Assembly: GCF_000621125.1 (NCBI RefSeq)
Contig: NZ_JHZC01000008.1
Coordinates: 248,001 to 312,000 of the forward strand
DNA length: 64,000 bases
Reading direction: 5' to 3'
Origin: Maribacter antarcticus DSM 21422
GTDB lineage: Bacteria; Bacteroidota; Bacteroidia; Flavobacteriales; Flavobacteriaceae
Shown: one piece after another, positions 21,181 to 59,326 of the stretch
Layout of the letters: every line of letters starts with the position of its first letter
Position numbering within the stretch: the stretch's first letter is position 1
Position numbers and translations under genes: made by a program
The notes under the pieces: generated by a model
The model's database searches: none
What the model was told of the DNA's origin: nothing
Seen by the model: the letters and a program-made list of their open reading frames with translations, nothing else

Positions 21181-21346
21181 GCTATAGTTCTATTTTTTGA
21201 TTTCAAAATTTGGAGTACGAATCTTCCCGTTGCGTTCATCTTCTCTGCTATCGTTAAAAAGTATTCAGGCTTCAGTCCCAGTTGATTAGTGTACTTCTTT
21301 AAACACACCCTAAAATTACAAATGAAAACTAATATATAGCAAACAC

Positions 21347-21386
21347 TGTCAAAATTTTGGACAATATATGTATATTTATTTTACAC
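21347..21386 (+). promoter_or_regulatory. Activator dyad pair (UAS) upstream of tolC
   Basis: The left site TGTCAAAATTTTGGACA (21347-21363) is a near-perfect palindrome. The right site TGTATATTTATTTTACAC starts at 21369, 22 bp from the left start. The left start is 102 bp before the TGGCAC element. It is the first of six such modules and also the only one next to the regulator gene, so autoregulation is possible. Confidence 0.7.
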
Positions 21387-21448
21387 TTCATTTTAGGTAA
21401 ACACTTGCGAATCAATTTAAAAATTTGAAAATCAAATACTTAAGTTTA

Positions 21449-21464
21449 TGGCACGCATCTAGTA
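21449..21464 (+). promoter_or_regulatory. Sigma-54-like promoter of the tolC unit
   Basis: TGGCACGCATCTAGTA: the -24 half TGGCACG is perfect and the -12 half TAGTA keeps only T and the invariant G at correct spacing. It predicts transcription from about 21475, 15 bp before ATG 21490. Confidence 0.65.
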
Positions 21465-21489
21465 TAGTGTTTAGAACAGTAATAAACAT

Positions 21490-22836
21490 ATGAATTTAAA
21501 AATTAGAATAGCGTTCCTTTTTTTCATTACTCTTAGCGTTAAGACTATTGCGCAACAGCAATGGACTTTAGATGATTGTGTTGCTTACGCTTTGGAGCAT
21601 AATCTACTATTAAAGGACTTTCAGTATACCAATGATTCCAACAGAGAAGACTACAGACAATCTATTCGTAATCTTTTACCAGAAGTAAATGCGAATTCGA
21701 ATTATCAAGTGAATTCTGGTAGGGCAGAGGATCCTAATACAGGAACCTTTGTGGTTCAAGACTTTTTCTCTAACAATTATTCGATACAGTCTAACATTGA
21801 TTTGTTTCAAGGCTTTCAAAAAATCAATTCCATCAAGGCTTCTAAATTTTTATACCAAGCGGCCAAAGAAGAGAGCTTACAGCAAAAATATCTTTTGGCG
21901 TTTAGAGTCATGCAAGCATTTAATAATATTCGGTTTTTTGAAGGATTGGTTGCCATTGCTACGGAACAGGTACGTGTTTCAAAAACCAATTTTCAATTGG
22001 TCCAAAAGCAAATTGAACTAGGACTTATGGCTGGTGCCGACAGGTATGAGGCAAAATCCGCCCTGCTGTCCGATGAATTAAACCTAACCCAAAGTAGGAA
22101 CCAATTGGCTGCCGCAGAATTGGCCTTGATTCAAGAAATGAATTTAGAGGATACCTCAGAGATTGAAATTATAGCCAACTTAAAGGCAGTAGCCGAAGTA
22201 GAAATCGCACCAAAGATGCAATCGGATTCTGTATATGCTACAGCACGTGAGTTTTTACCATTGATAAAGGCGCAAGAACTAAGGGCGCAAGCCGCAAAAA
22301 AACAAGTGGGCGTTGCGAGAGGTAGGCTTTATCCTTCCTTATCCCTTTTTGCAGGTATGGGTACGGGTTATTTTGAAACGTTTAGAGATAGTTTGGGCAG
22401 CACCCTTCCTTTTCAAGAACAATTTAGTGATAATTTTTCTCGATTTTTTGGTCTGAACCTGAATGTTCCCATCAGCAACGGGTGGTCTGGGCGGTCACGT
22501 GTTAAACAGGCAAAAATCGAAAGACTTCGGCAAGAGAATAACCTTCAGGTTCAAGAACAGGTACTTTTTCAAACCATTCAAGAATTGGTGCAACAGTACA
22601 ATGCGCTGCAAATAGAGCGGGGTCAGAGTGATCAAAATGTAGCTGCACAACGAATGGCATTTACTATTGCCCAAAAACGCTATGAAAAAGGGATGATTAA
22701 TGGGATAGAGTTGTTTACGGCAAAAAACCTTTTTGCAAGTGCGCAAAACGAAAATTTACAAGTGCGGCTCCGTTCAGAAATCAATAAGAATACGTTGAAT
22801 TTTTATAATGGATTGCCAGTGTTTGCTATAAAATAA
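21490..22836 (+). CDS. TolC-family outer-membrane efflux protein
   Basis: 448 residues. Signal peptide MNLKIRIAFLFFITLSVKTIAQ, then the TolC start WTLDDCVAYALEHN. Two long alpha-helical hairpins (about 150-230, 330-440) carry heptad-like Gln/Glu/Ala-rich stretches, typical of the periplasmic tunnel. Trimers form the outer-membrane exit duct of tripartite pumps. It is the first gene after the sigma-54 module and is followed by the adaptor and ATPase genes, so it supplies the outer-membrane part of the permease array. No second TolC is seen in the window, so all twelve permeases would have to share it if they use a channel at all. Confidence 0.92.
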   Translation: MNLKIRIAFLFFITLSVKTIAQQQWTLDDCVAYALEHNLLLKDFQYTNDSNREDYRQSIRNLLPEVNANSNYQVNSGRAEDPNTGTFVVQDFFSNNYSIQSNIDLFQGFQKINSIKASKFLYQAAKEESLQQKYLLAFRVMQAFNNIRFFEGLVAIATEQVRVSKTNFQLVQKQIELGLMAGADRYEAKSALLSDELNLTQSRNQLAAAELALIQEMNLEDTSEIEIIANLKAVAEVEIAPKMQSDSVYATAREFLPLIKAQELRAQAAKKQVGVARGRLYPSLSLFAGMGTGYFETFRDSLGSTLPFQEQFSDNFSRFFGLNLNVPISNGWSGRSRVKQAKIERLRQENNLQVQEQVLFQTIQELVQQYNALQIERGQSDQNVAAQRMAFTIAQKRYEKGMINGIELFTAKNLFASAQNENLQVRLRSEINKNTLNFYNGLPVFAIK

Positions 22837-22931: not shown

Positions 22932-24182
22932 ATGGATATACAATTAGAAAAGAAAAAAGGATTACGACCAAAACATTACGGGTATATCGCGTTGGGAATA
23001 TTACTCCTCTTTGTGGGGTACCAGCTCATTTTTGCTACCTCGGTCTCTACGTTTAGAACAGAGAAAGACAAACTCTCCATTGCCGAAGTTACGCAGGGCA
23101 AGTTCGATGATTATATTACCATTAACGGGAACGTTGCTCCGATCACTACTATATATATGGATGCTTATGAAGGTGGGCGAGTGAACGAGAAACTGATAGA
23201 GGAGGGTGCCATGGTCAAAAAGGGAGATATCATACTAAAGCTCGAAAACATGAATCTATACGAGCAGATTTTGGCCAGTGAAAGTAATTTGGCACTAAAG
23301 CAAAACGATTTAAGGTCTACGAAACTAACCTTCGATTCGCGTCAGGTAGAGGGCAGAAGATCGCTTGCAACGGCCAGTACAGATTTGCAACGTCTCAAAA
23401 GAAATTTTCAGCAAAATAAGGCGCTTATGGAAGATGAGCTTATTTCTCAAGAGGTATTTCAATTGTCTAAAGAAAATTATGAGCTCTCCCAAAAACAATA
23501 TGATATTGTTAAAATGCAAACGGTAAATGATGATGAGCTACGTATAACGTCCTTGTCAGGGTTGGATACGGATTTAGCCAGAATGCAAAAAACCTTAGGT
23601 ATGGTGTATCAGCGTTTAGATCATCTCAATGTCCGCGCTCCTGCTGATGGCCAATTGGGCTTTTTAGATGCCGAAATAGGACAGAATATTGCCCAAGGGC
23701 AACGTATAGGTCAGCTCAATGTGCTGACAGATTTTAAAATAGAGGCAGATATAGATGAACATTATATAGATCGTGTAAAAAGAGACTTGAGTGCCATATT
23801 GGAACGTAACGGAAAGGATTACAAACTTAGGGTTAGAAAAGTATATCCAGAAGTTCGAAACGGTAGGTTCAGGGTAGATCTAGTTTTTACCGAAGATAGA
23901 CCAGAAACCATCCGTGCCGGACAGAGTTATAACATCAAATTACAATTGGGCGAGTCTAGTGATGCACTGTTATTGCCCAAAGGAAGTTTCTTTCAAAGTA
24001 CAGGAGGGCAATGGATTTTTGTTGTAACGCCTGGAACAGATGAAGCTATAAAAAGAAACATAAGAGTAGGGAAACAGAACGCGAGGCACTATGAGGTATT
24101 GGAAGGACTACAGGCCGGAGAAGAAGTTATTACGAGTAATTATGATTCCTTTGGAGAGGCAGAGCGTATCGTGTTGAAATAA
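22932..24182 (+). CDS. MacA/HlyD-like periplasmic adaptor
   Basis: 416 residues. A single N-terminal membrane anchor (about 16-36, YIALGILLLFVGYQLIF) is followed by a beta-barrel/lipoyl segment (VAPITTIYMDAYEGGRVNEKLIEEGAMVKKGDIILKLEN). A long helical hairpin spans about 105-215, then the second lipoyl half (HLNVRAPADGQLGFLDAEIGQNIAQGQRIGQL), a beta-barrel domain and a membrane-proximal domain ending near 416. It bridges an inner-membrane ABC permease and TolC in MacA-type tripartite systems. It lies between tolC and ATPase1 and is the only adaptor gene of the region. Confidence 0.9.
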   Translation: MDIQLEKKKGLRPKHYGYIALGILLLFVGYQLIFATSVSTFRTEKDKLSIAEVTQGKFDDYITINGNVAPITTIYMDAYEGGRVNEKLIEEGAMVKKGDIILKLENMNLYEQILASESNLALKQNDLRSTKLTFDSRQVEGRRSLATASTDLQRLKRNFQQNKALMEDELISQEVFQLSKENYELSQKQYDIVKMQTVNDDELRITSLSGLDTDLARMQKTLGMVYQRLDHLNVRAPADGQLGFLDAEIGQNIAQGQRIGQLNVLTDFKIEADIDEHYIDRVKRDLSAILERNGKDYKLRVRKVYPEVRNGRFRVDLVFTEDRPETIRAGQSYNIKLQLGESSDALLLPKGSFFQSTGGQWIFVVTPGTDEAIKRNIRVGKQNARHYEVLEGLQAGEEVITSNYDSFGEAERIVLK

Positions 24183-24244: not shown

Positions 24245-24940
24245 ATGATAACAATTAAAGATTTAAAAAAGAGCTTTAAAACAGAGGAGGTAGAAACGCT
24301 TGCTTTGAATAACGTAAACCTGAAAGTAGAAGATGGCGAATTTGTGGCCATTATGGGACCATCGGGCTGTGGAAAATCTACTTTGTTGAATATTATAGGG
24401 ATGCTTGATAACCCCACGGAAGGCAGTTATAACTTTGCTAGTCATGAAGTAGCTGGGTTGAAGGAAAGTCAACGGACGCAATTACGAAAAGGGAATTTGG
24501 GCTTTGTGTTTCAGAGTTTTAATCTAATCGATGAACTTACCGTTTATGAGAATGTAGAGTTGCCACTTATCTATCTAAAAATGGGAAAAGTGGAGCGTAA
24601 GGAAAAAGTAATGAAAGTATTGGAACGGATGAAAATCGCGCATAGGGAAAAACACTTTCCACAGCAATTATCTGGGGGACAGCAACAACGTGTCGCTATT
24701 TCTAGAGCCGTAGTGACCAATCCTAAACTAATTCTTGCGGATGAGCCAACCGGTAACTTGGATTCCAAAAATGGTATAGAGGTTATGAACCTACTTACGG
24801 AACTGAATCAAGAAGGTACAACCATAGTGATGGTTACGCACTCTGATAGGGATTCACATTATGCCCATAGGATAGTTAATTTATTTGATGGTCAAGTAGT
24901 AACAGAGAGTCAAAATAGAGCGATTGGAGCCATGATGTAA
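24245..24940 (+). CDS. MacB/LolD-type ABC transporter ATPase 1
   Basis: 231 residues. Walker A GPSGCGKST (38-46), Q-loop FVFQSFNLIDELTVYENV, signature LSGGQQQRVAISRA, Walker B LILADEP, D-loop TGNLDSKNG and H-loop MVTHSDR are all canonical. It belongs to the o228/LolD-MacB group that powers FtsX-type permeases working by mechanotransmission rather than classical transport. It follows the adaptor gene by 62 bp and is separated from permease P1 by 396 bp without a recognisable promoter. It is the presumed energy source for most of the permeases. Confidence 0.93.
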   Translation: MITIKDLKKSFKTEEVETLALNNVNLKVEDGEFVAIMGPSGCGKSTLLNIIGMLDNPTEGSYNFASHEVAGLKESQRTQLRKGNLGFVFQSFNLIDELTVYENVELPLIYLKMGKVERKEKVMKVLERMKIAHREKHFPQQLSGGQQQRVAISRAVVTNPKLILADEPTGNLDSKNGIEVMNLLTELNQEGTTIVMVTHSDRDSHYAHRIVNLFDGQVVTESQNRAIGAMM

Positions 24941-25336
24941 AATCCATCTAGCCATTCATCGCCGGAGAATTACATGCTAGGAATTGGCTGGAATGAGTAA
25001 AAAGTGCTCCCTGTCTTCCCGAGCAATGTTGAAGGGTAAGCCGGCTGGGTCACTTTAGTTTAGCCAGAGGAATTTTTAATCAAGTTTAGAGATTAATCTG
25101 CTTTTTCTTTTGTAAAAGCTATCCATTCAAGCTTGCTTAAAACTAGGATAGCATAATAAAATAACACTAGGAGTTTATTCATCAATCTATGTTGAACTAG
25201 GTTCAGCATAAAAATCAAAGTGTATTACAATCGGCCATTAATCACGGTCATTTGGAGCAGTTGAAGTGCGTTGAAAGTATGGTTGATTTATCAATCAGAA
25301 ATACGGAAACCAATACAGTAAGTGAAGCTGAACATC
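24941..25336. other. 396-bp gene-free gap between ATPase 1 and P1
   Basis: I see no TGGCA-type sigma-54 element, no activator dyad and no exact TAnnTTTG promoter placed for P1. A frame open from about 25205 to 25357 (VQHKNQSVLQSAINHGHLEQ...) has no start and no family I recognise. P1 and P2 are therefore assumed to be read through from the tolC promoter. Confidence 0.5.
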
Positions 25337-27724
25337 ATGATAAAAAACTATTTTAAAATTGCATGGCGGAACATCGTAAAGAATCCAGGATATTCCATAA
25401 TTAACATTGGCGGTCTAGCCATAGGAATGGCTTGTTTTCTGCTAATAGCTCTGTTTATTAGAAACGAACTTTCCTATGACAGCTACCACGAAAAAGGGGA
25501 TAATATTTACCGGATTGTCCATCATGACAATGAGGGTAAACAGATTTGGGGAAATGCTCCTGTCGGCCCTGCGTTAAAAAAGGATTTTTCTGAGGTGGTA
25601 GAAATAGTTCAATTTTCTGGTAGGTCGGATATTTTGTTGGAATACAACGAACGTTCTTTTCAAGAAGGCAATTCATTTTATGTGGATGAGACCGCTTTTG
25701 ATATTTTTAGTTGGCCCTTGCGCTCTGGCAATCCCAAAACTGCGTTAAAAGACCCATATACTATAGTACTTACGGAAAGTACAGCTAAAAAGTATTTTGG
25801 AAACGAGAATCCTATTGGTAAAACTATGGATGGTGTTGGAGGGAGAGCAAATGATGGTATTTATACAGTCACTGGTGTTATGAAGGACGTACCTGCTAAC
25901 TCACATTTTTCTTTTGATGTGCTTATGTCCATGAGCTCTTTTTATCAGTCGCGATCAGAAATTTTTGAGTCGTGGGGCTATGTAGATTTTTATACCTATT
26001 TTTTGGTAAGCGATAATTTTAATCAACAAGCTTTCCAAGGGAAAATGCCTGAATTTTTAAAACGAAATCGTCCCGAAGAGAATGCAGATTATTTTTATGA
26101 CCTTTCTTTTGAACCCTTAAAAGACACCTATTTAAAATCGGCTGCTGCACGCCAGCCTGGTGTTACAAGTAGCCTCGCCAATATTTATATTTTCGCGCTC
26201 ATAGGTCTGTTTATCCTGATTATTGCCTGTATCAACTTTATGAATTTGGCCACTGCGCGGTCTTTGGAAAGGGCCAAGGAAGTAGGGGTGAGAAAAGTAA
26301 TTGGGGCGGATAAAAAAGGCTTGCGTTATCAGTTTTTGGGGGAGTCCCTACTTATGGTGCTGCTTGCTTCCATTTTAGGTTTAGTATTGGTAATGATATG
26401 TCTTCCCACTATGCGGAATATTACCGGTAAAGCGTTTCTTTCTTCTGAAATTTTTAATGTTTTTAGTCTTTCATTATATTTTGGCATTGCTTTGTTGACA
26501 GGTTTGCTAGCAGGCTTGTATCCCGCTTTTGTACTGTCCAATTTTAAACCGTCCAGTGTACTTAAAGGAGTTTTTAAAAGCTCAAAACAGGGCACCAACC
26601 TAAGAAAGGGTTTGGTTATTTTTCAATTTTCACTCTCCATTGCTCTGATCGCCAGCACGGTTATTGTTTATTTTCAGTTGGGATTTATGTTGAATAAAAA
26701 TTTAGGCTTTGATCAGGAGCAACAACTGGTCATCGATTTTAATTGGGATGGTCAAGTACTTGATAATATGGAAACCATTAAAAGTGAGTTTATGAACCTT
26801 CAAGAAGTAGTTTCGGTCGCAGGTTCCCGTACCGTGCCTGGAAGTCACTTTCCTGGCGCAGGAACAGATATTGAAACTTTTGAGGGCAGTATGGAAAATT
26901 TTAGTCCTTTTTTGTACGAGATAGACTTTGACTTTATTCCACATTACAACATAGAAGTAGTGGCCGGAAGAGCATATTCAAGGGAGTTCGTGACAGATTC
27001 TGTTTCCTCTTTATTGGTCAACGAAGCGGCCGCCAGAAGTTTTGGTTATGCCAACCCTGCGGATATTATTGGGAAACGTTTTCAACAATGGGGCCGAGAA
27101 GGAACTATTATTGGTGTGGTAAAGGACTTTAATTACATGTCTTTACATCAAGCTGTGGCACCGTTGACCTTGCGTTATTCTCAATTTGGCAAGTACCTAT
27201 CAATGAAAGTCAAATCCAGCAACATGCAACAGGGCATTTCCAATATTGAGCAAAAATGGGCAGAACTGGCTCCGCACCGTCCGTTTCTTTATACTTTTTT
27301 GGATGAATCCTTTAATACGCAATACGAGGCCGACATCAAGTTTAGAAAATTATTTACTTTATTTTCCTTCTTGGCTATTTTTATTGCCTGTTTGGGTCTG
27401 TTGGGGTTAGCCACGTATAGCGCCGTGCAACGCACCAAGGAAATAGGAGTCCGTAAAGTTTTAGGTGCTGAGGTGTCCAGTATCGTAAAGCTATTATCTA
27501 TCGATTTTATTAAGCTGGTTTTGATAGCCATCGTTGTAGCCACTCCCTTCTCATGGTATGTCATGGATAAATGGCTTCATGTATATGCCTACCAAATAGA
27601 TATTAGTTGGTGGATTTTCGCTTTGGCTGGAGGCATAGCATTGTCTATCGCATTAGCAACAGTAAGTTTTAACGCGATAAAAGCAGCGAGGGCTAATCCA
27701 GTTAAAAGTTTGAGGACAGAATAG
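25337..27724 (+). CDS. FtsX/MacB-type ABC permease P1
   Basis: 795 residues from ATG 25337 (the frame is open five codons further up, but the family N-terminus MIKNYFKIAWRN begins here). Architecture shared by P1-P12: TM1 about 20-42; a periplasmic MacB core domain; three TMs (about 285-400) forming the first FtsX domain; then TM5 (~425-445), a second periplasmic domain and a second three-TM FtsX domain (~680-785). This is eight TMs, a fused version of the four-TM MacB subunit, so one chain can act as the dimer. ATPase-coupling segments RAKEVGVRKVIGA (~311) and RTKEIGVRKVLGA (~698) are intact. C-terminus NPVKSLRTE. Confidence 0.93.
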   Translation: MIKNYFKIAWRNIVKNPGYSIINIGGLAIGMACFLLIALFIRNELSYDSYHEKGDNIYRIVHHDNEGKQIWGNAPVGPALKKDFSEVVEIVQFSGRSDILLEYNERSFQEGNSFYVDETAFDIFSWPLRSGNPKTALKDPYTIVLTESTAKKYFGNENPIGKTMDGVGGRANDGIYTVTGVMKDVPANSHFSFDVLMSMSSFYQSRSEIFESWGYVDFYTYFLVSDNFNQQAFQGKMPEFLKRNRPEENADYFYDLSFEPLKDTYLKSAAARQPGVTSSLANIYIFALIGLFILIIACINFMNLATARSLERAKEVGVRKVIGADKKGLRYQFLGESLLMVLLASILGLVLVMICLPTMRNITGKAFLSSEIFNVFSLSLYFGIALLTGLLAGLYPAFVLSNFKPSSVLKGVFKSSKQGTNLRKGLVIFQFSLSIALIASTVIVYFQLGFMLNKNLGFDQEQQLVIDFNWDGQVLDNMETIKSEFMNLQEVVSVAGSRTVPGSHFPGAGTDIETFEGSMENFSPFLYEIDFDFIPHYNIEVVAGRAYSREFVTDSVSSLLVNEAAARSFGYANPADIIGKRFQQWGREGTIIGVVKDFNYMSLHQAVAPLTLRYSQFGKYLSMKVKSSNMQQGISNIEQKWAELAPHRPFLYTFLDESFNTQYEADIKFRKLFTLFSFLAIFIACLGLLGLATYSAVQRTKEIGVRKVLGAEVSSIVKLLSIDFIKLVLIAIVVATPFSWYVMDKWLHVYAYQIDISWWIFALAGGIALSIALATVSFNAIKAARANPVKSLRTE

Positions 27725-30304: not shown

Positions 30305-30344
30305 TGTAAATATTTTGTACATATTATGTCAAAATATTTTACAG
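30305..30344 (+). promoter_or_regulatory. Activator dyad pair upstream of P3
   Basis: The left site TGTAAATATTTTGTACA (30305-30321) is followed by right site TGTCAAAATATTTTACAG (30327-30344); starts are 22 bp apart and 92 bp before TGGCAT. The right site is the reverse complement of the right site before P11. Confidence 0.7.
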
Positions 30345-30396: not shown

Positions 30397-30412
30397 TGGC
30401 ATGAAAATCGAC
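30397..30412 (+). promoter_or_regulatory. Sigma-54-like promoter of P3
   Basis: TGGCATGAAAATCGAC: -24 TGGCATG, -12 TCGAC with the conserved G. ATG 30453 is 41 bp past the element. Confidence 0.65.
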
Positions 30413-33146: not shown

Positions 33147-33186
33147 TGTAAATATATTATACAAGGTATGTCCAATTATTTTACAG
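33147..33186 (+). promoter_or_regulatory. Activator dyad pair upstream of P4
   Basis: Left TGTAAATATATTATACA (33147-33163), right TGTCCAATTATTTTACAG (33169-33186); starts 22 bp apart, left start 91 bp before TGGCAC. Confidence 0.7.
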
Positions 33187-33237: not shown

Positions 33238-33253
33238 TGGCACGAAAATAGAC
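33238..33253 (+). promoter_or_regulatory. Sigma-54-like promoter of P4
   Basis: TGGCACGAAAATAGAC: perfect -24 half, -12 half TAGAC with the conserved G. ATG 33303 is 50 bp past the element. Confidence 0.65.
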
Positions 33254-45500: not shown

Positions 45501-45512
45501 AAGAACATACTG

Positions 45513-50360: not shown

Positions 50361-52811
50361 ATGTTTAAAAATAATCTAAAAATAGCTTTGAGAAACATCT
50401 TAAAAAATAAGGTGTTTTCTTTAATCAATATTATTGGTCTGTCCATTGGTTTAAGTGCGGCTTTTGTCATTGGAGCGATTATTTATTACGACATGACCTT
50501 TGACAAGTTCCATTCGGATAGCAAACGTATCTACAGAATCACGACAGCATTCTTGAGTCCAGAAGGTGATTTTTATAATGCAGGGGTAACGGTTCCTTTG
50601 GCAGGAGCCCTTAGCGATTTGAATATGCCCGAACTGGAAACAGTAGCACCATTTTTTACTGCATACCCATTACGTGTAGAGAACAAGAAGCTGGATTTTA
50701 GCTTTAAAAATCCTGAGTTTGTTATCTATGCAGATGACGACTATTTTAGGACCTTGGACTATATCTGGTTGGCCGGCACTCAAAAAGAGGCATTGAGTGC
50801 ACCCAATACGGTTGTACTTTCCGAAGCTCGGGCTCAAATATATTTTCCAGATCAAGAACTTACCTCACTTATCGGTAAAACTTTAATTTATAACGATACC
50901 ATTCCTGCCCTAGTAACCGGTATAGTCGCCAACTTTACCCAGAGAACCGATTTGGTCTTTGAGGAATTCCTCTCCTTAAAAACGGCAGATGTACAGGATA
51001 TGACCAGTGCCGTCGTAGATGCGCATTGGCATAATACCAACTCTGCTTCTCAATTGTTTGTAAAACTTACCCCAAACGCCAGTAAAATCGAAGTTCAAAA
51101 AGTGTTGGATGGCATATCCAAAGAACATGAAGCAAAGGAACGCGTAGCAATAGGCCGGTCTAATTCCTTTTATATGCAACCCTTGTCCGACTTACATTTT
51201 GATAGTAACTATAATACCTTTGATTTTGATGATCAGAGGGCAAGTCTTCTGGTGCTTAGAAATTTAGGGCTCGTCGCGTTATTTTTACTTCTCTTAGGCT
51301 GTATTAATTTTATCAATCTTAATACTGCGCAGGCTTCACAGCGTGCCAAAGAAATTGGGATTCGTAAAACCTTAGGTTCGTCTAAAAAACAATTGATTTT
51401 CCAGTTTTTGGGCGAGACGCTATTATTAACAATGGCGGCAGGGGCGCTGTCCTTAGTTTTAGCAAATGGACTGCTCGGTATTTTTAGTGATTATATTCCG
51501 GCTGGTATCGATCTTAGTTTGTATTATGATGCCTTGCCTATCTTAGGTATTGTGACCTTATTGCTTATAGTTACCTTACTTTCGGGTTTTTATCCCGCAT
51601 TAATCTTATCGGGCTACAAACCTATTTCCGTCTTAAAAAATGAGGGGGTAAAAGCAAATCAGCGTGCTGGGCTTCGGAAGTACTTGACGGTATTCCAGTT
51701 TTCTATTGCACAGATTTTTATTATCGCGACACTTTTGGTAGGGAAACAGCTGCACTATATAATGAAAAAGGACATGGGTTTCAAGACTGATGCCATTGCT
51801 TATTTCTATACGCCTTGGAGCGACCCTGCACCAGAGAAGAAAGAACGCTTTATTGCCAAATTGGAAGCCTTGCCTATGATTACCGAGGTAACCTTAGGAG
51901 GGAATCCACCGGCATCTTTTAGTACCCATTCTATGGGTGTATTATTTCAACAGGGCGATCAGGAAGTCAACTCAGATTTACAGCTCATTTATGGCGATGC
52001 CGATTATTTCAATATCTACGGCCTTCAATTACTTGCAGGTCGGTTACCGCTCAATGATACCATACGAGAATATGTAGTGAATCAAACCTATTTAAAGCAA
52101 TTAGGTATTGAAAATCCGGAAAGTATCATTGGAAAGACATTTAAGGCAGATGATGAGAACCACCCCATTGTAGGGGTAATGCAAGATTTTCATCAGCGTT
52201 CTTTAAAGACAAAAATAGAACCCATGGCATTTACGGGCGATACAAATGGGAGTAGACGTTCTCAATTTAGGGTCGTAAGTTTTAAATTGGCTACAGAACA
52301 CAGTTCTCAGTGGCCGGAAACCATCGCCCAAATTGAAAGTATTTGGAAGGGTATTTATCCAGCTTCCGATTTTGAGCATCGTTTTATGGACGATACCATT
52401 GAGCGGTTTTATGCCCAAGAACGCAAAGTTTCTGTGCTCTTGAGATGGGCTACTGGCCTGGTGATTTTAATTAGTTGTTTAGGGCTTTTGGGATTGGTGA
52501 TGTACACCACGCAAAGGCGTATCAAGGAAATTGGAATCCGAAAAGTAGTAGGGGCTTCTTTGCTACAACTGAATATGTTGTTGTGTAAAGAGTTTTTGAT
52601 GGTGGTAGGCGTTGCGTTCTTAATTGCAATACCAATAGCATGGTGGGGCATGTACAATTGGTTACAGGGTTTTGCTTTTAAGACCAATATGAGTTGGTGG
52701 GTATTTGTGGGTAGCGGACTTGCCATGCTTGTAATCGCTTTGATTATTATAAGTATTAGAACCATTGCAGCTGCTAGGGTAAATCCTGTAAAAAGCCTTC
52801 GGTCCGAATAA
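50361..52811 (+). CDS. FtsX/MacB-type ABC permease P10
   Basis: 816 residues, the longest of the set. N-terminus MFKNNLKIALRNILKNKVFSLINIIGLSIG; coupling segments RAKEIGIRKTLGS and RIKEIGIRKVVGA are intact; C-terminus NPVKSLRSE. The first periplasmic domain carries insertions (TAFLSPEGDFYNAGVTVPLA, DQELTSLIGKTL) relative to P1-P6. Last gene of the P8 unit; the P11 control module starts 6 bp after its stop. Confidence 0.93.
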   Translation: MFKNNLKIALRNILKNKVFSLINIIGLSIGLSAAFVIGAIIYYDMTFDKFHSDSKRIYRITTAFLSPEGDFYNAGVTVPLAGALSDLNMPELETVAPFFTAYPLRVENKKLDFSFKNPEFVIYADDDYFRTLDYIWLAGTQKEALSAPNTVVLSEARAQIYFPDQELTSLIGKTLIYNDTIPALVTGIVANFTQRTDLVFEEFLSLKTADVQDMTSAVVDAHWHNTNSASQLFVKLTPNASKIEVQKVLDGISKEHEAKERVAIGRSNSFYMQPLSDLHFDSNYNTFDFDDQRASLLVLRNLGLVALFLLLLGCINFINLNTAQASQRAKEIGIRKTLGSSKKQLIFQFLGETLLLTMAAGALSLVLANGLLGIFSDYIPAGIDLSLYYDALPILGIVTLLLIVTLLSGFYPALILSGYKPISVLKNEGVKANQRAGLRKYLTVFQFSIAQIFIIATLLVGKQLHYIMKKDMGFKTDAIAYFYTPWSDPAPEKKERFIAKLEALPMITEVTLGGNPPASFSTHSMGVLFQQGDQEVNSDLQLIYGDADYFNIYGLQLLAGRLPLNDTIREYVVNQTYLKQLGIENPESIIGKTFKADDENHPIVGVMQDFHQRSLKTKIEPMAFTGDTNGSRRSQFRVVSFKLATEHSSQWPETIAQIESIWKGIYPASDFEHRFMDDTIERFYAQERKVSVLLRWATGLVILISCLGLLGLVMYTTQRRIKEIGIRKVVGASLLQLNMLLCKEFLMVVGVAFLIAIPIAWWGMYNWLQGFAFKTNMSWWVFVGSGLAMLVIALIIISIRTIAAARVNPVKSLRSE

Positions 52812-52816
52812 TGGTC

Positions 52817-52856
52817 TGTAAAAATAATGTACAAATACTGTAAAATATTTTGACAG
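52817..52856 (+). promoter_or_regulatory. Activator dyad pair upstream of P11
   Basis: Left TGTAAAAATAATGTACA (52817-52833), right TGTAAAATATTTTGACAG (52839-52856, reverse orientation of the P3 right site); starts 22 bp apart, left start 90 bp before TGGCAT. It begins 6 bp after the P10 stop. Confidence 0.7.
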
Positions 52857-52906: not shown

Positions 52907-52922
52907 TGGCATAATAATAGGG
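52907..52922 (+). promoter_or_regulatory. Sigma-54-like promoter of the P11-GIN-P12-ATPase2 unit
   Basis: TGGCATAATAATAGGG: -24 TGGCATA, -12 TAGGG with the conserved G; the weakest of the six but in the same position. ATG 52954 is 32 bp past it. Confidence 0.55.
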
Positions 52923-52953
52923 TACGTTTTATAAGAACCACTAAAATCAATTG

Positions 52954-55380
52954 ATGTATAAACTGTTCCTAAAAATCGCAACACGATATTTACTTAAGAA
53001 TAAGCTCTATTCTTTCATTAATATTTTTGGACTGGCTATCGGCATCGCTTCTTTCGTGCTCATTATGCTCTATGTGAATTACGAACAGAGTTATGATAAA
53101 TTTGAAGGATCTGAGAACGTTTATCGAGCCTACATGGATTACCTAGAAGGCGATACTTTTGTAGCAGGAGATGCCCAAACTTATAATTCGACAGGACCTT
53201 CTCTAAAGGAGGAATTCCCGGAAGTGTTGGACTACGTTAGATTGTTCTATTTTGAAAAAATGACCTTTCAACTAGGAGAGCGCATATTAGAAGAGCCGCT
53301 AGGTTCATTGGCAGACCCTTCCTACTTTGATATTTTCAACTACCCACTGCTAAAAGGAGAAAAAGAAAAGGTGCTATCTCAGCCTTATTCTATTGTACTG
53401 TCCCAATCTTTTGCACAGAAATTATTTGGAACCGAAGATCCAATGCAAAAAACAATTTCTGCATTTAGAGATGGGGAAAAAGCAATACTCACCGTAACGG
53501 GAGTAATGGTCGATATGCCAAAAACCGCGCATTATAGAAACTCCTTTTTAATATCATATGAAACTGAGAAAACGTGGACCTATTATGGCACTGAGATACA
53601 CGAACTTAATTGGAATGCGAACAATTATTATACGTTTCTAAAACTAGATCCAAATGCCAACGTATCTCTTTTACGCCAAAAAATAATGGATAGTGATCTA
53701 GAGCAAGATACAGAGGAACAACACAATATTGAACCTCTTGAAGATATTCATTTGTATTCGGATAAGCCCTATGAGGTTTCCGCGAACGGCAGCGTTACCA
53801 GAATCAAATTTTTGACGGCCATTGCATTTATTATTCTTATTCTCTCGTGGTTAAATTACGTAAACCTTTCCGCTACAAAATCTATGGAGCGTGCAAAGGA
53901 AGCGGGTATTCGTAAAGTTTCTGGAGCCCAAAAATCACAACTGATACTTCAATCTTTAATTGAATCTATATTGCTAAACATTATTGCTATTTCAATATCC
54001 TTAGTGCTGGTGGCTATAACACTGCCCTTGTATAATGCCGTTACTGGTAAGGAGCTCAGCTCAGGTTTATCAAATATTAGCAGCTTTTTGCCTTACTTCC
54101 TTTTTATTTTATTGGGTATGATTCTAGCAGGCCTATATCCTGCACTTTTACTGAGCAGCTATTCTCCCGCCAAAGCGTTAAAAGGAAAAATACAGACTTC
54201 TACACAAGGTTTAGCCATTAGGAAAGGGCTCCTCGTTACCCAGTTTTTAGCTACGATTGTTTTATTGATAGGCACTATTGTAGTGACCAAACAAATTAAT
54301 TTTTTGGAAAGTCAGCCCATTGGCACCAACGTCAATCAAGTTATCGCATTAAAGGGTGAAGTAATAACTGCAAAGGCAGATTCTTTGTTAATTAATGATT
54401 ACAAGGTTTTGGAGGCAGAGTTGAAAAGACTGCCGTTTGTGGAAAAAGTGGCTATTGCACAAACCTATCCTGGCGATAGTTTTGATAATCTATCCTCTAC
54501 CCGTGGGATTTCATTACCAAATGGGAAACGCGAAGAGGACAAGTTATTCTATACCTATCACGTACAGCCCGATTATTTTGATTTAATGGATATTGAATTC
54601 TTGGCCGGCGGAACCTTTCTTGCCTCATCGGAAGGGAAGGGACGACAGGTTATAGTCAACGAAACCTTTCTTAAGAATATGGGTATCTCATCTGCCGATG
54701 ATGTGCTGAATAAAACACTTGGGTTTTGGGGCTATGATGAATGGAGGGTAGCCGGTGTAATTAAGGATTACTATCATTTTGGACTCAAAAGCCCCGTGTT
54801 GCCTATGATTATTCGTTATCAGAGTGATGTAAGTAATCTGTTAGTAAAACTAGACCCTTCTGCGGCATCACTCTCAGGTATCGAATCTTCTATGTCACAA
54901 ATAAAATTAGTATGGACCCGAATCTTCCCAAAAAGTACGTTCAACTATACTTTTTTAGATCAAAAATTTGAAGCACAATACAAAGAAGATAAAGCCTTTG
55001 GGTCTGCCTTTCAGGTTTTCACTGTTATAGCAATTCTTATCGCTGCCATGGGCTTGTTTGGACTTACATCCTACACTGTGGTGCAACGTAAAAAGGAAAT
55101 AGGCATACGTAAGGTAAATGGGGCGACCATACCACAAGTGCTTGCACTTTTAAATAAGGATTTTGTTAAATGGGTAGGTGTGGCTTTTGTTATTGCAGTG
55201 CCTGTTTCTTGGTATACCATGAATCAATGGTTAGAAGGCTTTGCATACCGCACAACACTTAGTTGGTGGGTGTTTGCTTTGGCGGGAATTTCAGCACTTT
55301 TAATCGCCTTGTTAACTGTAAGTTGGCAGAGTTTTCAAGCAGCGGTCACCAATCCAGTAGATTCACTTAGAGATGAATAA
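52954..55380 (+). CDS. FtsX/MacB-type ABC permease P11
   Basis: 808 residues from ATG 52954 (a TTG lies one codon upstream). N-terminus MYKLFLKIATRYLLKNKLYSFINIFGLAIG. The first coupling segment RAKEAGIRKVSGA has Ala for Val/Ile; the second, RKKEIGIRKVNGA, is shared in style with P7. C-terminus NPVDSLRDE is acidic, as in P12 (NPVNSLRDE), and unlike the NPVKSLR of the others. This pairs P11 and P12 as a subtype located with ATPase 2. Confidence 0.93.
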   Translation: MYKLFLKIATRYLLKNKLYSFINIFGLAIGIASFVLIMLYVNYEQSYDKFEGSENVYRAYMDYLEGDTFVAGDAQTYNSTGPSLKEEFPEVLDYVRLFYFEKMTFQLGERILEEPLGSLADPSYFDIFNYPLLKGEKEKVLSQPYSIVLSQSFAQKLFGTEDPMQKTISAFRDGEKAILTVTGVMVDMPKTAHYRNSFLISYETEKTWTYYGTEIHELNWNANNYYTFLKLDPNANVSLLRQKIMDSDLEQDTEEQHNIEPLEDIHLYSDKPYEVSANGSVTRIKFLTAIAFIILILSWLNYVNLSATKSMERAKEAGIRKVSGAQKSQLILQSLIESILLNIIAISISLVLVAITLPLYNAVTGKELSSGLSNISSFLPYFLFILLGMILAGLYPALLLSSYSPAKALKGKIQTSTQGLAIRKGLLVTQFLATIVLLIGTIVVTKQINFLESQPIGTNVNQVIALKGEVITAKADSLLINDYKVLEAELKRLPFVEKVAIAQTYPGDSFDNLSSTRGISLPNGKREEDKLFYTYHVQPDYFDLMDIEFLAGGTFLASSEGKGRQVIVNETFLKNMGISSADDVLNKTLGFWGYDEWRVAGVIKDYYHFGLKSPVLPMIIRYQSDVSNLLVKLDPSAASLSGIESSMSQIKLVWTRIFPKSTFNYTFLDQKFEAQYKEDKAFGSAFQVFTVIAILIAAMGLFGLTSYTVVQRKKEIGIRKVNGATIPQVLALLNKDFVKWVGVAFVIAVPVSWYTMNQWLEGFAYRTTLSWWVFALAGISALLIALLTVSWQSFQAAVTNPVDSLRDE

Positions 55381-55405: not shown

Positions 55406-56128
55406 ATGAAAGCTATACTACCATTTTTCGCACTAATTATATGTGCCTCATGGACTCATGCCCAACGTTGTAAAAAAACAAAAGGGAATGGAAACGTGGT
55501 TACTGCAGAAAGAAAAGTGGGAAACTATGAGGGTATTACTGAGGGTGTATTTTACGAAGTAACCTTGGTGGAAGGGAAAGAAGGCAGCATTACCATGACT
55601 ACTGAAGATAATATGTTAGAATACACAGACCCGGAGCTAGGAGTCAGTACCTTAACCATAAAATCTAAGGATCATACGCAATTGAAGCGATTTCTAGTAG
55701 AGAAGGTTTCTATTGCCATTCCCGTGGATAAGATAAATGCAATTAGATTACCTGGTTCGGGGAAAGTAAGCTCTTCCTTAACGCTGGAGGCGTCAAATTT
55801 TAAAGTGCATACATCAAGGTCTAGAAATGCAGAACTGAAGTTGAAGGCGAAACGAATTGGGGTAATTTCTTCTGGTTCCAGTACTATTACTTTGGATGGT
55901 AGCGCTGAAAGTTTGGATATCACGGCTTCAGGCTCATCTAATCTAAGGGCTTTGGAATTAATATTGAATACCGCCGAGATTAGACCTTCTGGCTCCTCTA
56001 ATATTCGAATTGCAGTTAACAGCCTAATTGATTCAAGATGTCTGGGATAGAGTAGCATTAAGTATCACGGAAACCCAGAAAAAATGCATAGTAAATCTTC
56101 TGGTTCCAGTAAGGTGTCTAAGGAGTAA
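55406..56128 (+). pseudogene. GIN-domain (DUF2807) exported protein with an internal stop
   Basis: Signal peptide MKAILPFFALIICASWTHAQ, then a DUF2807/GIN beta-helical domain rich in Ser/Gly turns (YEGITEGVFYEVTLVEG, IRLPGSGKVSSS, TASGSSNLRALEL, RPSGSSNIRI). TAG at 56048-56050 ends the frame after 214 residues. The same frame then continues for 25 more codons in family style (SSIKYHGNPEKMHSKSSGSS, KVSKE) to TAA at 56126. So the C-terminal strands are cut off by a nonsense change, with local scrambling near RCLG. It may still give a shortened product (55406-56050). Lies 25 bp after P11 in the same unit. GIN proteins are common beside Bacteroidota stress and permease genes; function unknown. 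Confidence 0.8.
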
Positions 56129-56197: not shown

Positions 56198-58612
56198 ATG
56201 TTTAAGAACTATTTAAAAATTGCGTTTCGCAACCTATCGAAGGATAAGGCCTTCACGTCCATTAATGTCATAGGACTCTCGGTTGCTTTTGGGGTGGCTA
56301 TTCTTTTGGCAATGGCTGGGTTTTTTGATTTGTCCTATGATAAATTCCACGAGAACGGAGATCGTATTTATAAGGTATACGCTATTGAGCAAACCACTAA
56401 AGGTCCCCAAGCAAGTGTAAGTCATCCGGCCCCATTGATAACTTCTTTAAAAGAGGGTGTTCCCGGAATTGAAATGGCCTCTCGGTATGTACAGGATGAG
56501 GCTATTGTTTCTTTTGGAGACAAGGAGATTAACATGGATATCAGTTGGGTAGATACTGATTTTTTTAACATATTTACATTTCCTTCTGTAAAAGGAAAAA
56601 GGCAAAGTCCACTCAACGAGTTGTCTTCTGTTGTAATTACGGAGAACACCGCAAAAACTCTTTTTGGAGATGAAGAAGCAGTGGGGAAAACGGTACAGAT
56701 ATTGATTAATGGAGAAGATCAATCCTTTACAGTTGCCTCGGTAGTGGCAAACCATGTGCCGCAAAGTACAATAGGGTTTGAACTAGCGGTTAGGTTTGAA
56801 AAACATGAGGATTATCTAGAAAACCAAGACGCTTGGAACGCTAAATATCATGATGTATATGTGCAAATGACCGCAGGAGTTTCTCCTGTTCAATTTGAGA
56901 AGGCGACCCGCTCTTTAATCGATATAAATTTTAAAGAGCAAATAGAAAATGCCCAACGCGATGGGGCACTGGCGAACGCTGAGGGTCGCTTTATTAGTTA
57001 TGAATTATTGCCTCTTAATGATGTTAATTTTGTAAAATTCAGAAACGGATACGCAGAGGTTAGTAGAAGTACTCCGTATCTTGTTTTGAGTATTGCTTTT
57101 TTAATTCTTTTCATTGCTTGTGTAAATTTCATAAATATGAGTGTTGCGAAAAGTGGGCAGCGGCTTCGAGAAATCGGAATGCGAAAAACACTTGGTGCTA
57201 AGAGGGAACAGTTATTTTTTCAATTTTGGAGCGAAAGCCTGTTTGTGTTCTTGGTGTCTATTTTATGTGGTGTGGTTTTGAGCATGCTATTTATAGATCA
57301 GTTTAAAACTGTTTTTAGAACTAAAGTCACTTTTGATTTGCTACTATCACCCACACTAATTCTATCCTTTTTAGCAGGTGTATTACTTATTACCTTATTA
57401 GTTGGAGGCTATCCTGCGGTATTGTTAAGCAAGTTAGGAACCCTACAATCTTTAAAGGGTAAATTGAGTGCGTCTAGCAAAAACAGGGTGCGTGATGTTT
57501 TAATGATTGCCCAATTTGGTATTGCTATTTTATTGATAACTGGGACTTTAGTTCTGCGTAGTCAGTTGGATTTTATGCGGAATAAGGATTTAGGTTTTAA
57601 CAAGGAACATGTACTTTCCTTTCCTTTGGATGGAAAAAGAGAGAGCTATAAAGCCATTGAGTTATTACGAAACGAGCTAGCCGGAAATCCTGATATTTTA
57701 GAAATAACGGGGGCCGATAATAACTTGGGCTATGGTAAGGATGGGAGTGTATCCAAAAGTGTTTTTGGATTTGAATATAAAAATAGGGTTGTTAAGACCA
57801 ATATGTTGGTCGTAGATTATGATTATGTAGCTGCGCTGGATTTGGAAATAGTAGCTGGTAGAAATTTTAATAGGGGGTTTGCTAACGATAGTTTAAGTGT
57901 GGTCATTAATGAGACTATGGCTAAGGAGTTTGGAGAAGAAGATCCATTAACAGCGTATGTAAGCGTTAGAGATTCCTTAAATTATCCTGTAATTGGTGTA
58001 GTAAAGGACTATAATTTTGAAAATTTAGACAAGACGGTCGAACCGATTACTATGTTTATGAATAAGCAATGGGGTTTGTACTACGCCTATGTCAAGGTGG
58101 CTCCTGGGAATTTAGCTAAATCTTACGCAGTAGTAGAGCAGGCTTGGGTAAAGATTGAACCTAACGCTAAGTTTTTAGGTTCTTTTTTGGATGAGAATAT
58201 AAATAGAACCTTTAGAAAAGAAGAACGTATGACCACTATGATTACAAGCGGTTCTATTTTAGCTATTGCCTTGAGTTGTATCGGTCTTTTTGCGATTTCT
58301 TTATTGATAGTAAATCAACGTACAAAAGAAATAGGGGTAAGAAAGGTAATTGGGGCAAGCGTAGCCAATATTACATTTTTGTTGACTAAGGATTTTCTCA
58401 AACTTGTTGGAATCTCATTTCTAATAGCGTCGCCGATTGCTTGGTGGTTTATGAAGGAATGGTTACAGAATTATCCTTTTAAGATAGAATTGAATATGGG
58501 ATTTTTTCTAGCAGCAGGATTTTTGGCTACATGCATAGCACTACTCACGGTGGGCGGTAGAACTATAAACGCTGCCATGCAGAACCCTGTAAATAGCTTA
58601 CGAGACGAGTAA
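56198..58612 (+). CDS. FtsX/MacB-type ABC permease P12
   Basis: 804 residues, N-terminus MFKNYLKIAFRNLSKDKAFTSINVIGLSVA. The first coupling segment is RLREIGMRKTLGA (Arg for Lys), the second RTKEIGVRKVIGA. C-terminus NPVNSLRDE, matching the acidic end of P11. TM1 ends FGVAILLAMAGFF instead of the usual LLI/LFI pattern. It is followed after a GATTTCC/GGAAATC hairpin by ATPase 2, the only permease directly adjacent to that ATPase. Confidence 0.93.
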   Translation: MFKNYLKIAFRNLSKDKAFTSINVIGLSVAFGVAILLAMAGFFDLSYDKFHENGDRIYKVYAIEQTTKGPQASVSHPAPLITSLKEGVPGIEMASRYVQDEAIVSFGDKEINMDISWVDTDFFNIFTFPSVKGKRQSPLNELSSVVITENTAKTLFGDEEAVGKTVQILINGEDQSFTVASVVANHVPQSTIGFELAVRFEKHEDYLENQDAWNAKYHDVYVQMTAGVSPVQFEKATRSLIDINFKEQIENAQRDGALANAEGRFISYELLPLNDVNFVKFRNGYAEVSRSTPYLVLSIAFLILFIACVNFINMSVAKSGQRLREIGMRKTLGAKREQLFFQFWSESLFVFLVSILCGVVLSMLFIDQFKTVFRTKVTFDLLLSPTLILSFLAGVLLITLLVGGYPAVLLSKLGTLQSLKGKLSASSKNRVRDVLMIAQFGIAILLITGTLVLRSQLDFMRNKDLGFNKEHVLSFPLDGKRESYKAIELLRNELAGNPDILEITGADNNLGYGKDGSVSKSVFGFEYKNRVVKTNMLVVDYDYVAALDLEIVAGRNFNRGFANDSLSVVINETMAKEFGEEDPLTAYVSVRDSLNYPVIGVVKDYNFENLDKTVEPITMFMNKQWGLYYAYVKVAPGNLAKSYAVVEQAWVKIEPNAKFLGSFLDENINRTFRKEERMTTMITSGSILAIALSCIGLFAISLLIVNQRTKEIGVRKVIGASVANITFLLTKDFLKLVGISFLIASPIAWWFMKEWLQNYPFKIELNMGFFLAAGFLATCIALLTVGGRTINAAMQNPVNSLRDE

Positions 58613-58623
58613 AGATATTAATA

Positions 58624-58641
58624 GATTTCCTTTCGGAAATC
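58624..58641. repeat. Short hairpin between P12 and ATPase 2
   Basis: GATTTCC-TTTC-GGAAATC, a perfect 7-bp stem with four-base loop in a 48-bp gap and no T-run. Similar in form to the hairpin after tolC; perhaps an RNA-processing or REP-like element. Confidence 0.6.
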
Positions 58642-58660
58642 GGAGTAAAAACAATTCATT

Positions 58661-59326
58661 ATGTTATTAGAATTAAACAATATTTTTAAATGGGTCAATT
58701 CAGGAGGCCAACGTATTTTTCTGTTAAAGGATATCAATCTTCAGGTAGAAGAAGGGGAGTTTATTTCAATAATGGGGCCTTCTGGTTCTGGAAAATCTAC
58801 ACTTTTGAACGTCATTGGAATGCTGGATGGTTTTGATGAAGGGGAGTATAACTTTTTGGATGAATCCGTTCATACCTTAAAAGAAAAGCACAGAGCAAAC
58901 TTGTATAAAGAATATATAGGTTTTGTTTTTCAATCCTATCATTTGTTAGATGAGTTGACTGTTCAAGAGAACTTAGAAATGCCTTTACTGTATAAAAAAT
59001 ATAAAGGTGCGGAGCGTAAAGCTATGGTAGCAGATATGCTAGACAGATTTAATATTGTGGGGAAAAAAGACTTGTTTCCAGCGCAATTGAGCGGTGGACA
59101 ACAACAGTTAGTTGGCGTTGCCCGCGCTTTAATTGCTAGTCCAAAACTAATATTAGCAGATGAACCCACCGGAAACCTCAATTCACAGCAAAGTGCAGAA
59201 ATTATGGAGCTATTCAAAAAATTGAATCAAGAAGATGGTGTCACCATAATACAAGTTACCCATTCGGAAAAGAATGCTGCCTATGGTTCAAGAATACTTA
59301 AACTATTGGATGGGCGGAAGGTATAA
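58661..59326 (+). CDS. MacB/LolD-type ABC transporter ATPase 2 (divergent)
   Basis: 221 residues. Walker A GPSGSGKS (39-46), Q-loop FVFQSYHLLDELTV, signature LSGGQ (143-147), Walker B LILADE (163-168) and H-loop QVTHSEK are present. Two deviations from ATPase 1 and the family: after the signature QQR is QQL (Leu150), and the D-loop GNLDS is GNLNS (Asn174, codon AAT 59180-59182). The D-loop Asp normally helps couple the two nucleotide sites, so hydrolysis kinetics may differ. Last gene of the array, next to P12; convergent with the amidase (12-bp gap). Confidence 0.92.
   Translation: MLLELNNIFKWVNSGGQRIFLLKDINLQVEEGEFISIMGPSGSGKSTLLNVIGMLDGFDEGEYNFLDESVHTLKEKHRANLYKEYIGFVFQSYHLLDELTVQENLEMPLLYKKYKGAERKAMVADMLDRFNIVGKKDLFPAQLSGGQQQLVGVARALIASPKLILADEPTGNLNSQQSAEIMELFKKLNQEDGVTIIQVTHSEKNAAYGSRILKLLDGRKV

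Follow-up and report, generated by a model that had tools for sequence, protein, structure and literature searches.

We uncovered, in the genome of Maribacter antarcticus DSM 21422, an array of ABC permease genes punctuated by identically spaced double-dyad sites, through which a single two-component switch seems to govern a set of export-pump genes in marine flavobacteria. A preliminary description of the locus had considered a dedicated sigma-54 regulon very likely, and the comparative evidence strongly supports such a regulon: a genome-wide search placed the predicted operator at this array alone, its conservation is linked to the regulator, its targets are of a preferred kind, it co-occurs with the regulator, and its letters differ between regulator clades. 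The window, i.e., the whole stretch of 64,000 nt that was analysed, corresponds to positions 248,001–312,000 of the forward strand of contig NZ_JHZC01000008.1 (assembly GCF_000621125.1; 4,850,576 bases in 32 contigs scanned). Its relevant features, in window coordinates, are as follows:

18265..19611, minus strand: sensor histidine kinase (PAS + HATPase_c) with two N-terminal membrane helices and hardly any periplasmic loop (Pfam, hydropathy, ortholog comparison)
19816..21180, minus strand: NtrC-type response regulator with receiver, sigma-54 AAA+ and Fis HTH domains and a GSFTDA loop motif (Pfam, translation)
21347..21385, unstranded: dyad pair, module 1 (tolC) (pattern search)
21449..21462, plus strand: TGGCAC-N5-TAG promoter-like element, module 1, 102 bp from pair start (pattern search)
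21490..22836, plus strand: TolC-type outer membrane efflux protein (Pfam OEP)
22932..24182, plus strand: HlyD-type periplasmic adaptor (Pfam HlyD_3)
24245..24940, plus strand: ABC ATPase 1 (Pfam ABC_tran)
25322..27724, plus strand: permease P1; 381-bp upstream gap without dyad pair (Pfam)
27774..30125, plus strand: permease P2 (Pfam)
30305..30343, unstranded: dyad pair, module 2 (P3) (pattern search)
30397..30410, plus strand: TGGCAT-N5-TCG, module 2, 92 bp from pair start (pattern search)
30453..32870, plus strand: permease P3 (Pfam)
33147..33185, unstranded: dyad pair, module 3 (P4) (pattern search)
33238..33251, plus strand: TGGCAC-N5-TAG, module 3, 91 bp from pair start (pattern search)
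33303..35738, plus strand: permease P4 (Pfam)
35800..35838, unstranded: dyad pair, module 4 (P5), duplicate of module 3 (pattern search, sequence comparison)
35886..35899, plus strand: TGGCAT-N5-TGG, module 4, 86 bp from pair start (5 bp deleted versus P4) (pattern search)
35944..38373, plus strand: permease P5 (Pfam)
38433..40832, plus strand: permease P6 (Pfam)
40992..43373, plus strand: permease P7; 159-bp gap without pair (Pfam)
45258..45296, unstranded: dyad pair, module 5 (P8) (pattern search)
45360..45373, plus strand: TGGCAT-N5-TCG, module 5, 102 bp from pair start (pattern search)
45489..47897, plus strand: permease P8 (Pfam)
47927..50308, plus strand: permease P9 (Pfam)
50361..52811, plus strand: permease P10 (Pfam)
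52817..52855, unstranded: dyad pair, module 6 (P11) (pattern search)
52907..52920, plus strand: TGGCAT-N5-TAG, module 6, 90 bp from pair start (pattern search)
52951..55380, plus strand: permease P11 (Pfam)
55406..56050, plus strand: DUF2807 (head GIN domain) protein, 3′ of P11 (Pfam)
56198..58612, plus strand: permease P12; 147-bp gap without pair (Pfam)
58661..59326, plus strand: ABC ATPase 2 (Pfam ABC_tran)

The array indeed holds the twelve permeases first described, all 12 with MacB_PCD and FtsX domains by Pfam. The initial picture of six modules controlling all of them needs refinement: the six operators are present, but only five of the 12 permeases (P3, P4, P5, P8 and P11) have one of their own. 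P2, P6, P9 and P10 each lie at most 60 bp behind another permease, and the pair is absent from the gaps 5′ of P1, P7 and P12 (381, 159 and 147 bp). Since a terminator scan of the array returned no terminator-like match in these three gaps, read-through into P1, P7 and P12 is possible. Matches to sigma-70-type promoters in the array were near chance (66 versus 57, and 53 versus 52).

The pattern TGT-N11-ACA-N5-TGT-N11-ACA, in which the dyad starts are 22 bp apart, matches six times in the window, before tolC, P3, P4, P5, P8 and P11, just as proposed, and genome-wide it matches at exactly these six places, all 5′ of array modules, with no random sites elsewhere. The individual dyads are of the TGT...ACA kind initially reported, but their real form is TGT-N11-ACA with an AT-rich core rather than strictly TGTC/GACA. 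A reversed control pattern has no match in the genome, and the pair arose neither in 100 dinucleotide-preserving shuffles of the window nor in 2000 Markov resamples of 18 intergenic regions, which together rule out a chance origin of the pairs. With one mismatch allowed, there are 18 places in the genome, of which the 12 beyond the six, set against 15 for the control, amount to no excess of weaker sites elsewhere. Single TGT-N11-ACA dyads number 24 in the window, 12 of them used by the six pairs, and among pair spacings from 17 to 60 bp, 22 alone was observed there.

Comparison with related systems revealed three regulator clades (classes I, II and III) with three dyad sequences, such that the dyad sequence varies with the HTH clade of the adjacent regulator. 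The dyads are 17 bp wide in classes I and II and 16 bp in class III; all three classes share the 22-bp repeat, adaptor-ATPase-permease operons and a TGGCAY element, which lies at 91/92 or 101/102 bp. The constancy of the repeat across clades with differing dyad letters is the unexpected part.

An element of the form TGGCAY-N5-TNG follows the pair start by 102, 92, 91, 86, 102 and 90 bp (tolC, P3, P4, P5, P8 and P11, respectively), bearing out in all six modules the TGGCA(C/T)-type element that had been placed 86–102 bp from the left dyad start. This form matches nine times in the window, where 3.2 matches are expected; beyond the six module elements, the three left over are at chance level. 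The −24 element TGGCAY is present in 6/6 window modules and in 68 of the 70 tolC promoters of relatives that carry the exact pair, at 101–103 bp. At the −12 element, G is found in 64/64 distinct class I tolC promoters and C in 17/64; in other class I promoters the figures are 39/43 and 7/43, and in class II promoters (n = 17) neither G nor C is fixed. As a reference, a study of Flavobacterium psychrophilum lists groES/groEL among the promoters bearing SM4, a sigma-54-type motif (PMC9723704). The groES promoters have the −12 G in 25/25 cases and the C in 19/25. The predicted promoter is one with a canonical −24 half and a −12 half that keeps the G but mostly lacks the C; the original assignment as sigma-54 promoters holds for the former half, but the latter is not canonical. 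An unlikely alternative is that the regulator binds the dyads, while TGGCAY is not a sigma-54 promoter but, for example, a further operator, with another holoenzyme carrying out transcription. It would be in keeping with the unlike −12 regions of classes I and II, with the finding of the canonical TTGGCAY-N5-TTGCW at only two places in the genome, no more than its reversed control, and with a second TTTGGCAYA that follows the first by 23 bp in most relatives' tolC promoters and has no clear −12 partner. Against it, the regulator has a sigma-54 interaction domain, rpoN is present (the single PF04552 match in the genome, 172.5 bits versus a cut-off of 22.8), TGGCAY stands at fixed dyad distances in three classes, and the spacing between TGGCA and the invariant class I G is matched in 25/25 groES promoters.

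The regulator gene is divergent from tolC and is followed by the histidine kinase gene. Pfam recovers PF00072, PF00158, PF25601 and PF02954 in the regulator, all above gathering score, in agreement with the NtrB/NtrC-like pair with an AAA+ sigma-54 activator recognized beside the first module at the outset. Like NtrC, NtrX, AtoC, ZraR and GlrR, it combines receiver, sigma-54 AAA+ and Fis HTH domains in one protein with a partner kinase gene adjacent, and, like NtrC-type enhancer-binding proteins in general, it is associated with upstream inverted repeats and a TGGCAY element. Unlike the GAFTGA of those proteins, its loop motif is GSFTDA in the window and 68/80 orthologs and GAFTDA in the other 12/80; class II regulators have GAFTDA (12/17) or GAFTGA (5/17). 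The fixed tandem dyad pair and duplicated ABC permeases as targets further set it apart from NtrC-type systems. It stays below the NCBIfam equivalog cut-offs for GlrR (283 of 763 bits), ZraR (328/760), NtrC (352/559), AtoC and NtrX and, more generally, reaches the curated cut-off of none of the 25 families listed of the 96 matched.

In 70 of 80 relatives, the regulator ortholog has the exact pair next to it; the remaining ten loci comprise three contig ends and seven pairs with one base changed. Away from the regulator in other genomes, 36 of 40 sites examined precede a gene for an FtsX/MacB permease, TolC or ABC ATPase, four precede other kinds of genes, and five lack TGGCAY. Bare-pair matches in other genomes include chance ones, as control patterns match some genomes too; hence, TGGCAY was required in counting co-occurrence. 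The genomes compared are related by descent, so that none of these counts represents independent events. Among 199 genomes of the host family, class I letters with TGGCAY are found in 20/26 genomes with the regulator and 0/173 without it. Before the split by letters, which was made by eye after the matches were known, 11 of those 173 also matched, with different letters and with a sister regulator present. Class II letters, likewise, are found in 11/23 genomes with a class II regulator and 0/176 others. When the class I pattern plus TGGCAY-N5-TNG was searched for across the phylum (247 genomes), two genomes matched, the host genome and one other of its family; the class II and III letters were searched within the family. 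One could conceive of another regulator binding the dyads, with the adjacent two-component pair being a neighbor with different targets, and four further loci of this genome do encode related AAA+ activators; we regard this as very improbable given the placement of the operator beside the adjacent regulator, its tracking of that regulator across the 199 genomes, and the correspondence between dyad letters and HTH clade.

P4 and P5 form a duplicated unit (proteins 60% identical, upstream DNA nearly identical), with the loss of 5 bp putting the P5 promoter out of phase with that of P4 by half a turn; thus, the six exactly spaced places first counted are confirmed as sites, but the genome offers five independent module instances. 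To extend this origin to all six sites, as by-products of recent tandem duplication of permeases with their upstream DNA and devoid of regulatory meaning, has a negligible chance of being right, as all other permease pairs are only 27–40% identical and dispersed permease genes in other genomes have the same upstream architecture.

We therefore propose a model, which we hold to be highly probable as a whole, running from kinase and regulator via the dyads and sigma-54 promoters to shared exporter parts and a panel of permeases. It joins what was computed, namely the sites, their geometry, the domains, conservation, target choice and the way operator letters go with regulator clade, to what is predicted: operator binding, formation of the ring, dependence on sigma-54, assembly and export function of the pumps, and the signal. 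Counting against the model are the −12 half, with its scarce C in class I and no fixed base in class II, the orthologous loci without the exact pair, the sites elsewhere that lack TGGCAY or precede other kinds of genes, the 11 matches seen before the split by letters, and the shifted phase of P5. The membrane histidine kinase would phosphorylate the divergently encoded regulator, whose dimers would occupy both dyads, two helical turns apart on one face of the DNA, and there assemble the AAA+ ring. A DNA loop would then bring the ring to sigma-54 RNA polymerase at the TGGCAY promoter, 47–63 bp past the second dyad, and remodeling of the polymerase would start transcription. In this way, one common outer-membrane channel, adaptor and ATPase might be induced together with a range of duplicated FtsX/MacB permeases that would be interchangeable and probably combine with these common parts into MacAB-TolC-like exporters of differing specificity.

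Comparable biology is provided by MacAB-TolC, the darobactin exporter DarB and the ADOP duplicated permeases, which likewise feature an adaptor, an ATPase and a MacB_PCD/FtsX permease, duplicated and of about 800 aa. The eight permeases scanned of the 12 all match TIGR03434 (ADOP) and NF038008 (DarB), all below both cut-offs (best among the eight: 334 of 622 bits for ADOP, 187 of 700 for DarB). Unlike in those systems, twelve permeases share the array with two ATPases and a single adaptor and TolC, and permease and ATPase are separate proteins. As for the operator, the enterobacterial GlrR regulon similarly has TGT...ACA dyads (TGTC-N10-GACA upstream of glmY/glmZ) assigned to a two-component enhancer-binding protein acting with sigma-54 (PMC4987338); however, its dyads are 18 bp wide, its targets are small RNAs, and the present regulator misses the GlrR cut-off. 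Closest in subject is a 2025 prediction that sigma-54 promoters are statistically enriched 5′ of COG0577 FtsX-like permeases in the class Bacteroidia (PMC12316311), i.e., the same kind of target gene and the same sigma factor. In the parts consulted, it is a promoter-matrix enrichment over genomes that assigns these permeases neither a regulator nor an operator, and the words “UAS” and “operator” are absent from its main text. Hence, the earlier statement that no description of the regulon was known stands for the regulator, operator and spacing, but sigma-54 control of COG0577 permeases had already been predicted. A search of open-access journal articles found no account of the present regulator, its operator or the 22-bp spacing.

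To our knowledge, the regulation and substrates of duplicated FtsX/MacB permeases in arrays with few ATPases are largely without description in the phylum. The double dyad would supply a precise DNA address that predicts, across many genera, the two-component system to which a given permease gene responds, giving many uncharacterized pumps a testable on-switch and a cheap route to the conditions that induce this exporter family. The clades with changed letters and fixed 22-bp spacing also present a natural experiment on the co-evolution of enhancer-binding proteins and operators, and bear on why two dimers exactly two turns apart should build an AAA+ activator.

Hydropathy profiles for the window kinase and for a sample of its 97 orthologs point to two N-terminal helices joined by a loop of few residues, and a NRKI.YFF motif is found at residue 58 in 73 of all 98 sequences. 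Bce-type systems link an intramembrane-sensing kinase with an FtsX-type ABC transporter and an OmpR-type regulator; at the level of genes, the present system resembles them in its almost loopless two-helix kinase encoded beside FtsX-type permeases, but its output is a sigma-54 activator instead. By analogy, it is conceivable, if doubtful, that we are dealing with a self-sensing palette of pumps, in which the kinase reads the state of the FtsX/MacB permeases in the membrane, the output passes through sigma-54 to induce the common channel, adaptor and ATPase along with a repertoire of permeases, the permeases compete, and sister regulons are insulated by their dyad letters. Such a palette would pair a Bce-like kinase lacking a periplasmic sensor with a single activator geometry diversified on a rigid 22-bp double-dyad frame.

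The six intergenic regions before tolC and the permease genes P3, P4, P5, P8 and P11 (modules 1–6) each hold an exact dyad pair of the form TGT-N11-ACA-N5-TGT-N11-ACA, with dyad starts 22 bp apart. The preliminary description had noted these pairs by reading, and the observation is real: there are six matches in the window against none in 100 shuffles, and a genome-wide search recovered the window's six and no other exact pair. When pair spacings of 17–60 bp were scanned in the window, 22 bp was the sole spacing present, and 11 was the sole inner width among the widths of 7–15 tried at that spacing. The TGGCA(C/T) element expected 86–102 bp on is likewise there, as TGGCAY-N5-TNG at 102, 92, 91, 86, 102 and 90 bp from the pair start in modules 1–6, most of these distances being about one helical turn apart. 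The P5 distance is 5 bp less than that of its duplicate P4 by one 5-bp deletion and thus furnishes a phase prediction open to test.

The window lies on contig C6 of a 4.85-Mb flavobacterial genome, and its array runs in the order: tolC, adaptor, ABC ATPase, the duplicated permeases P1–P12, interrupted after P7 by a phosphodiesterase gene, and then another ABC ATPase. Domain searches bore out the claim of a sigma-54-type activator with its kinase, divergent from the first module; the regulator is 80–89% identical to regulators from Maribacter records in sequence comparison. The features concerned, with two remnants judged by eye, are:

18265–19611, minus strand: histidine kinase with two helices and a loop of few residues
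19816–21180, minus strand: NtrC-type response regulator (sigma-54 AAA+ and Fis HTH domains)
32950–33110: remnant of a thirteenth permease directly upstream of the P4 operator, an N-terminal stretch like the other permeases, interrupted by stops
43450–43800: remnant like the N-terminus of a TetR-type regulator, with no intact ORF, upstream of the phosphodiesterase gene
55406–56050: DUF2807 (head GIN domain) gene behind P11, from domain search

We then compared 80 loci carrying the closest regulator relatives among the matches listed. In 70 of these best-listed loci, the intergenic region between the divergent genes contains an exact pair; for three of the other ten, the contig leaves fewer than 75 bp upstream, and seven, judged by eye, retain the region apart from a single altered base. 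Measured from the pair start, TGGCAY begins at 102 bp in 61 of the 70, at 101 bp in five and at 103 bp in two, the remaining two (Zobellia) having CGGCAY at 102 bp. Nine further pairs lie elsewhere in the 80 loci; for each of the nine, TGGCAY is found 91/92 or 101/102 bp on.

The bare pair, chance matches included, was matched in 127 of 397 family genomes. From 13 genomes, most with at least three matches, 39 of 54 sites were fetched, and one site from the 397-genome scan brought the sample to 40. The downstream gene is a permease in 29, TolC in six, the second ABC ATPase in one and something else in four; three of these four, when scanned for domains, encode a DUF2807 protein, a Zn-protease-like lipoprotein and a small Cro-type HTH protein. 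TGGCAY follows 91–104 bp downstream in 35 of the 40. Two genomes (G018 and G377) have nine sites each, dispersed over several contigs; hence, the regulon is not tied to one gene cluster, and it is wider than the preliminary description had it. DUF2807 genes were seen in two genomes, either behind a regulon permease (window 55406–56050) or directly after a site (locus L153, 2993–3598).

The pair plus TGGCAY matched in 31 of 199 family genomes. The dyad letters of the window's regulator clade (class I) occur in 20 of these 31, and all 20 fall among the 26 genomes encoding a class I regulator (E <= 1e-150), against 0 of 173 genomes lacking it (Fisher p 1.6e-22, computed after the letter split and uncorrected for shared ancestry). 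The six genomes that encode the regulator but did not match comprise one CGGCA variant, one contig end and four with one or two altered bases or shifted spacing. A dedicated regulon is thus strongly supported by conservation beside the regulator (70/80), permease, TolC or ATPase targets (36/40) and co-occurrence (20/26 versus 0/173).

The other 11 matched genomes have no class I regulator and different letters: their pairs end in TGTATC / CG.ACA, with TGGCAY at 92 bp, and all fall within the 23 genomes encoding a class II regulator (E <= 1e-150), about 50% identical to class I. Eighteen loci of this type were fetched, 17 with the class II regulator and one a permease site; TGGCAY stands at 92 bp in 15 and 91 bp in two, and is unreadable in one because of an N. 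Sixteen of the 17 show the order kinase, regulator, site, adaptor, ATPase, permease, with one extra gene in the 17th. The HTH end is ITRTALYRRLNK-like in class II versus ISRQTLYNKLKK in class I, with ALYRR in 17/17 class II and SRQTLYNK in 78/80 class I HTHs. A class III clade (17 loci) has 16-bp dyads, TGTTCG-N4-CGAACA: among nine width/spacing models, width 16 with a start spacing of 22 was best in 16 of 17 loci (13 without mismatch, three with one), a fit of at most one mismatch being reached by 2 of 100 single-base shuffles. In 13 loci the TGGCAY distance is 101/102 bp and in one it is 100 bp, and three lack the element; all eight loci read at greater length encode kinase, regulator, adaptor, ATPase and permease. 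The regulator tree supports class I at 0.97 and class III at 0.998, and joins class II weakly (0.275). Some genomes, e.g., G044, G077 and G082, hold two systems. Thus, the dyad letters vary with the regulator, and the 22-bp frame is constant.

The preliminary description knew of no account of this regulon, which holds in part: we found no description of the operators of this regulator family or of the 22-bp rule in the open-access literature searched, but a 2025 in silico study (PMC12316311) had presented, as first evidence, an enrichment of sigma-54 promoters ahead of COG0577 permeases in the class Bacteroidia. GlrR is assigned TGTC-N10-GACA (PMC4987338). The architecture, conservation, target choice and the association between regulator clade and operator letters are observed; established enhancer-binding-protein biology suggests that the regulator would be phosphorylated, that two dimers would bind on one DNA face, and that ring assembly would be followed by looping and opening of the sigma-54 polymerase. 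The domain content points to export via the adaptor and TolC with interchangeable permeases. The least certain step is the signal: since the two helices of the kinase are joined by a loop of few residues, it probably either comes from the membrane or is passed on by the permeases.

As to the promoter, we gathered class I promoters by TGGCAY and numbered positions with the T of TGGCA set to 0. All 64 distinct tolC promoters have both a T at +11 and a G at +13; the other class I promoters (n=43) have them in 40 and 39, respectively. A C follows this G in 17/64 and 7/43, versus 19/25 of the TGGCAY groES promoters of the same genus and order, in which G at +13 is found in 25/25; CTG occupies that place in all 15 same-genus groES promoters. 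Hence, what stays constant in the putative -12 element here is the G, and the C is more relaxed in class I than in groES. For F. psychrophilum, PMC9723704 lists groES/groEL under the sigma-54-type motif SM4. Class II promoters have T at +11 in 17/17, with G at +13 not kept. The canonical TTGGCAY-N5-TTGCW occurs at only two places genome-wide, equal to the reversed control, in a genome that encodes rpoN and several activators.

Most of the 64 tolC promoters (L038–L117) have a second conserved element, TTTGGCAYA, 23 bp further downstream than the first TGGCAY and near the expected transcription start; no clear -12 partner accompanies it. The 43 other class I promoters do not conserve this element, and its window copy (about 21470–21480, TTTAGAACA) looks decayed. 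At groES, a CTGGCATTTTT block 37–39 bp further upstream of the TGGCAT promoter precedes 15/15 same-genus genes and two others (L216, L218–L223, L225–L227, L229–L232, L234, L236, L239) and is possibly the site of another activator. In the window's genome, a second AAA+ activator match (G000:C7:46577–47854) lies ~2 kb from groES; it is split into two pieces, the first of which contains one stop.
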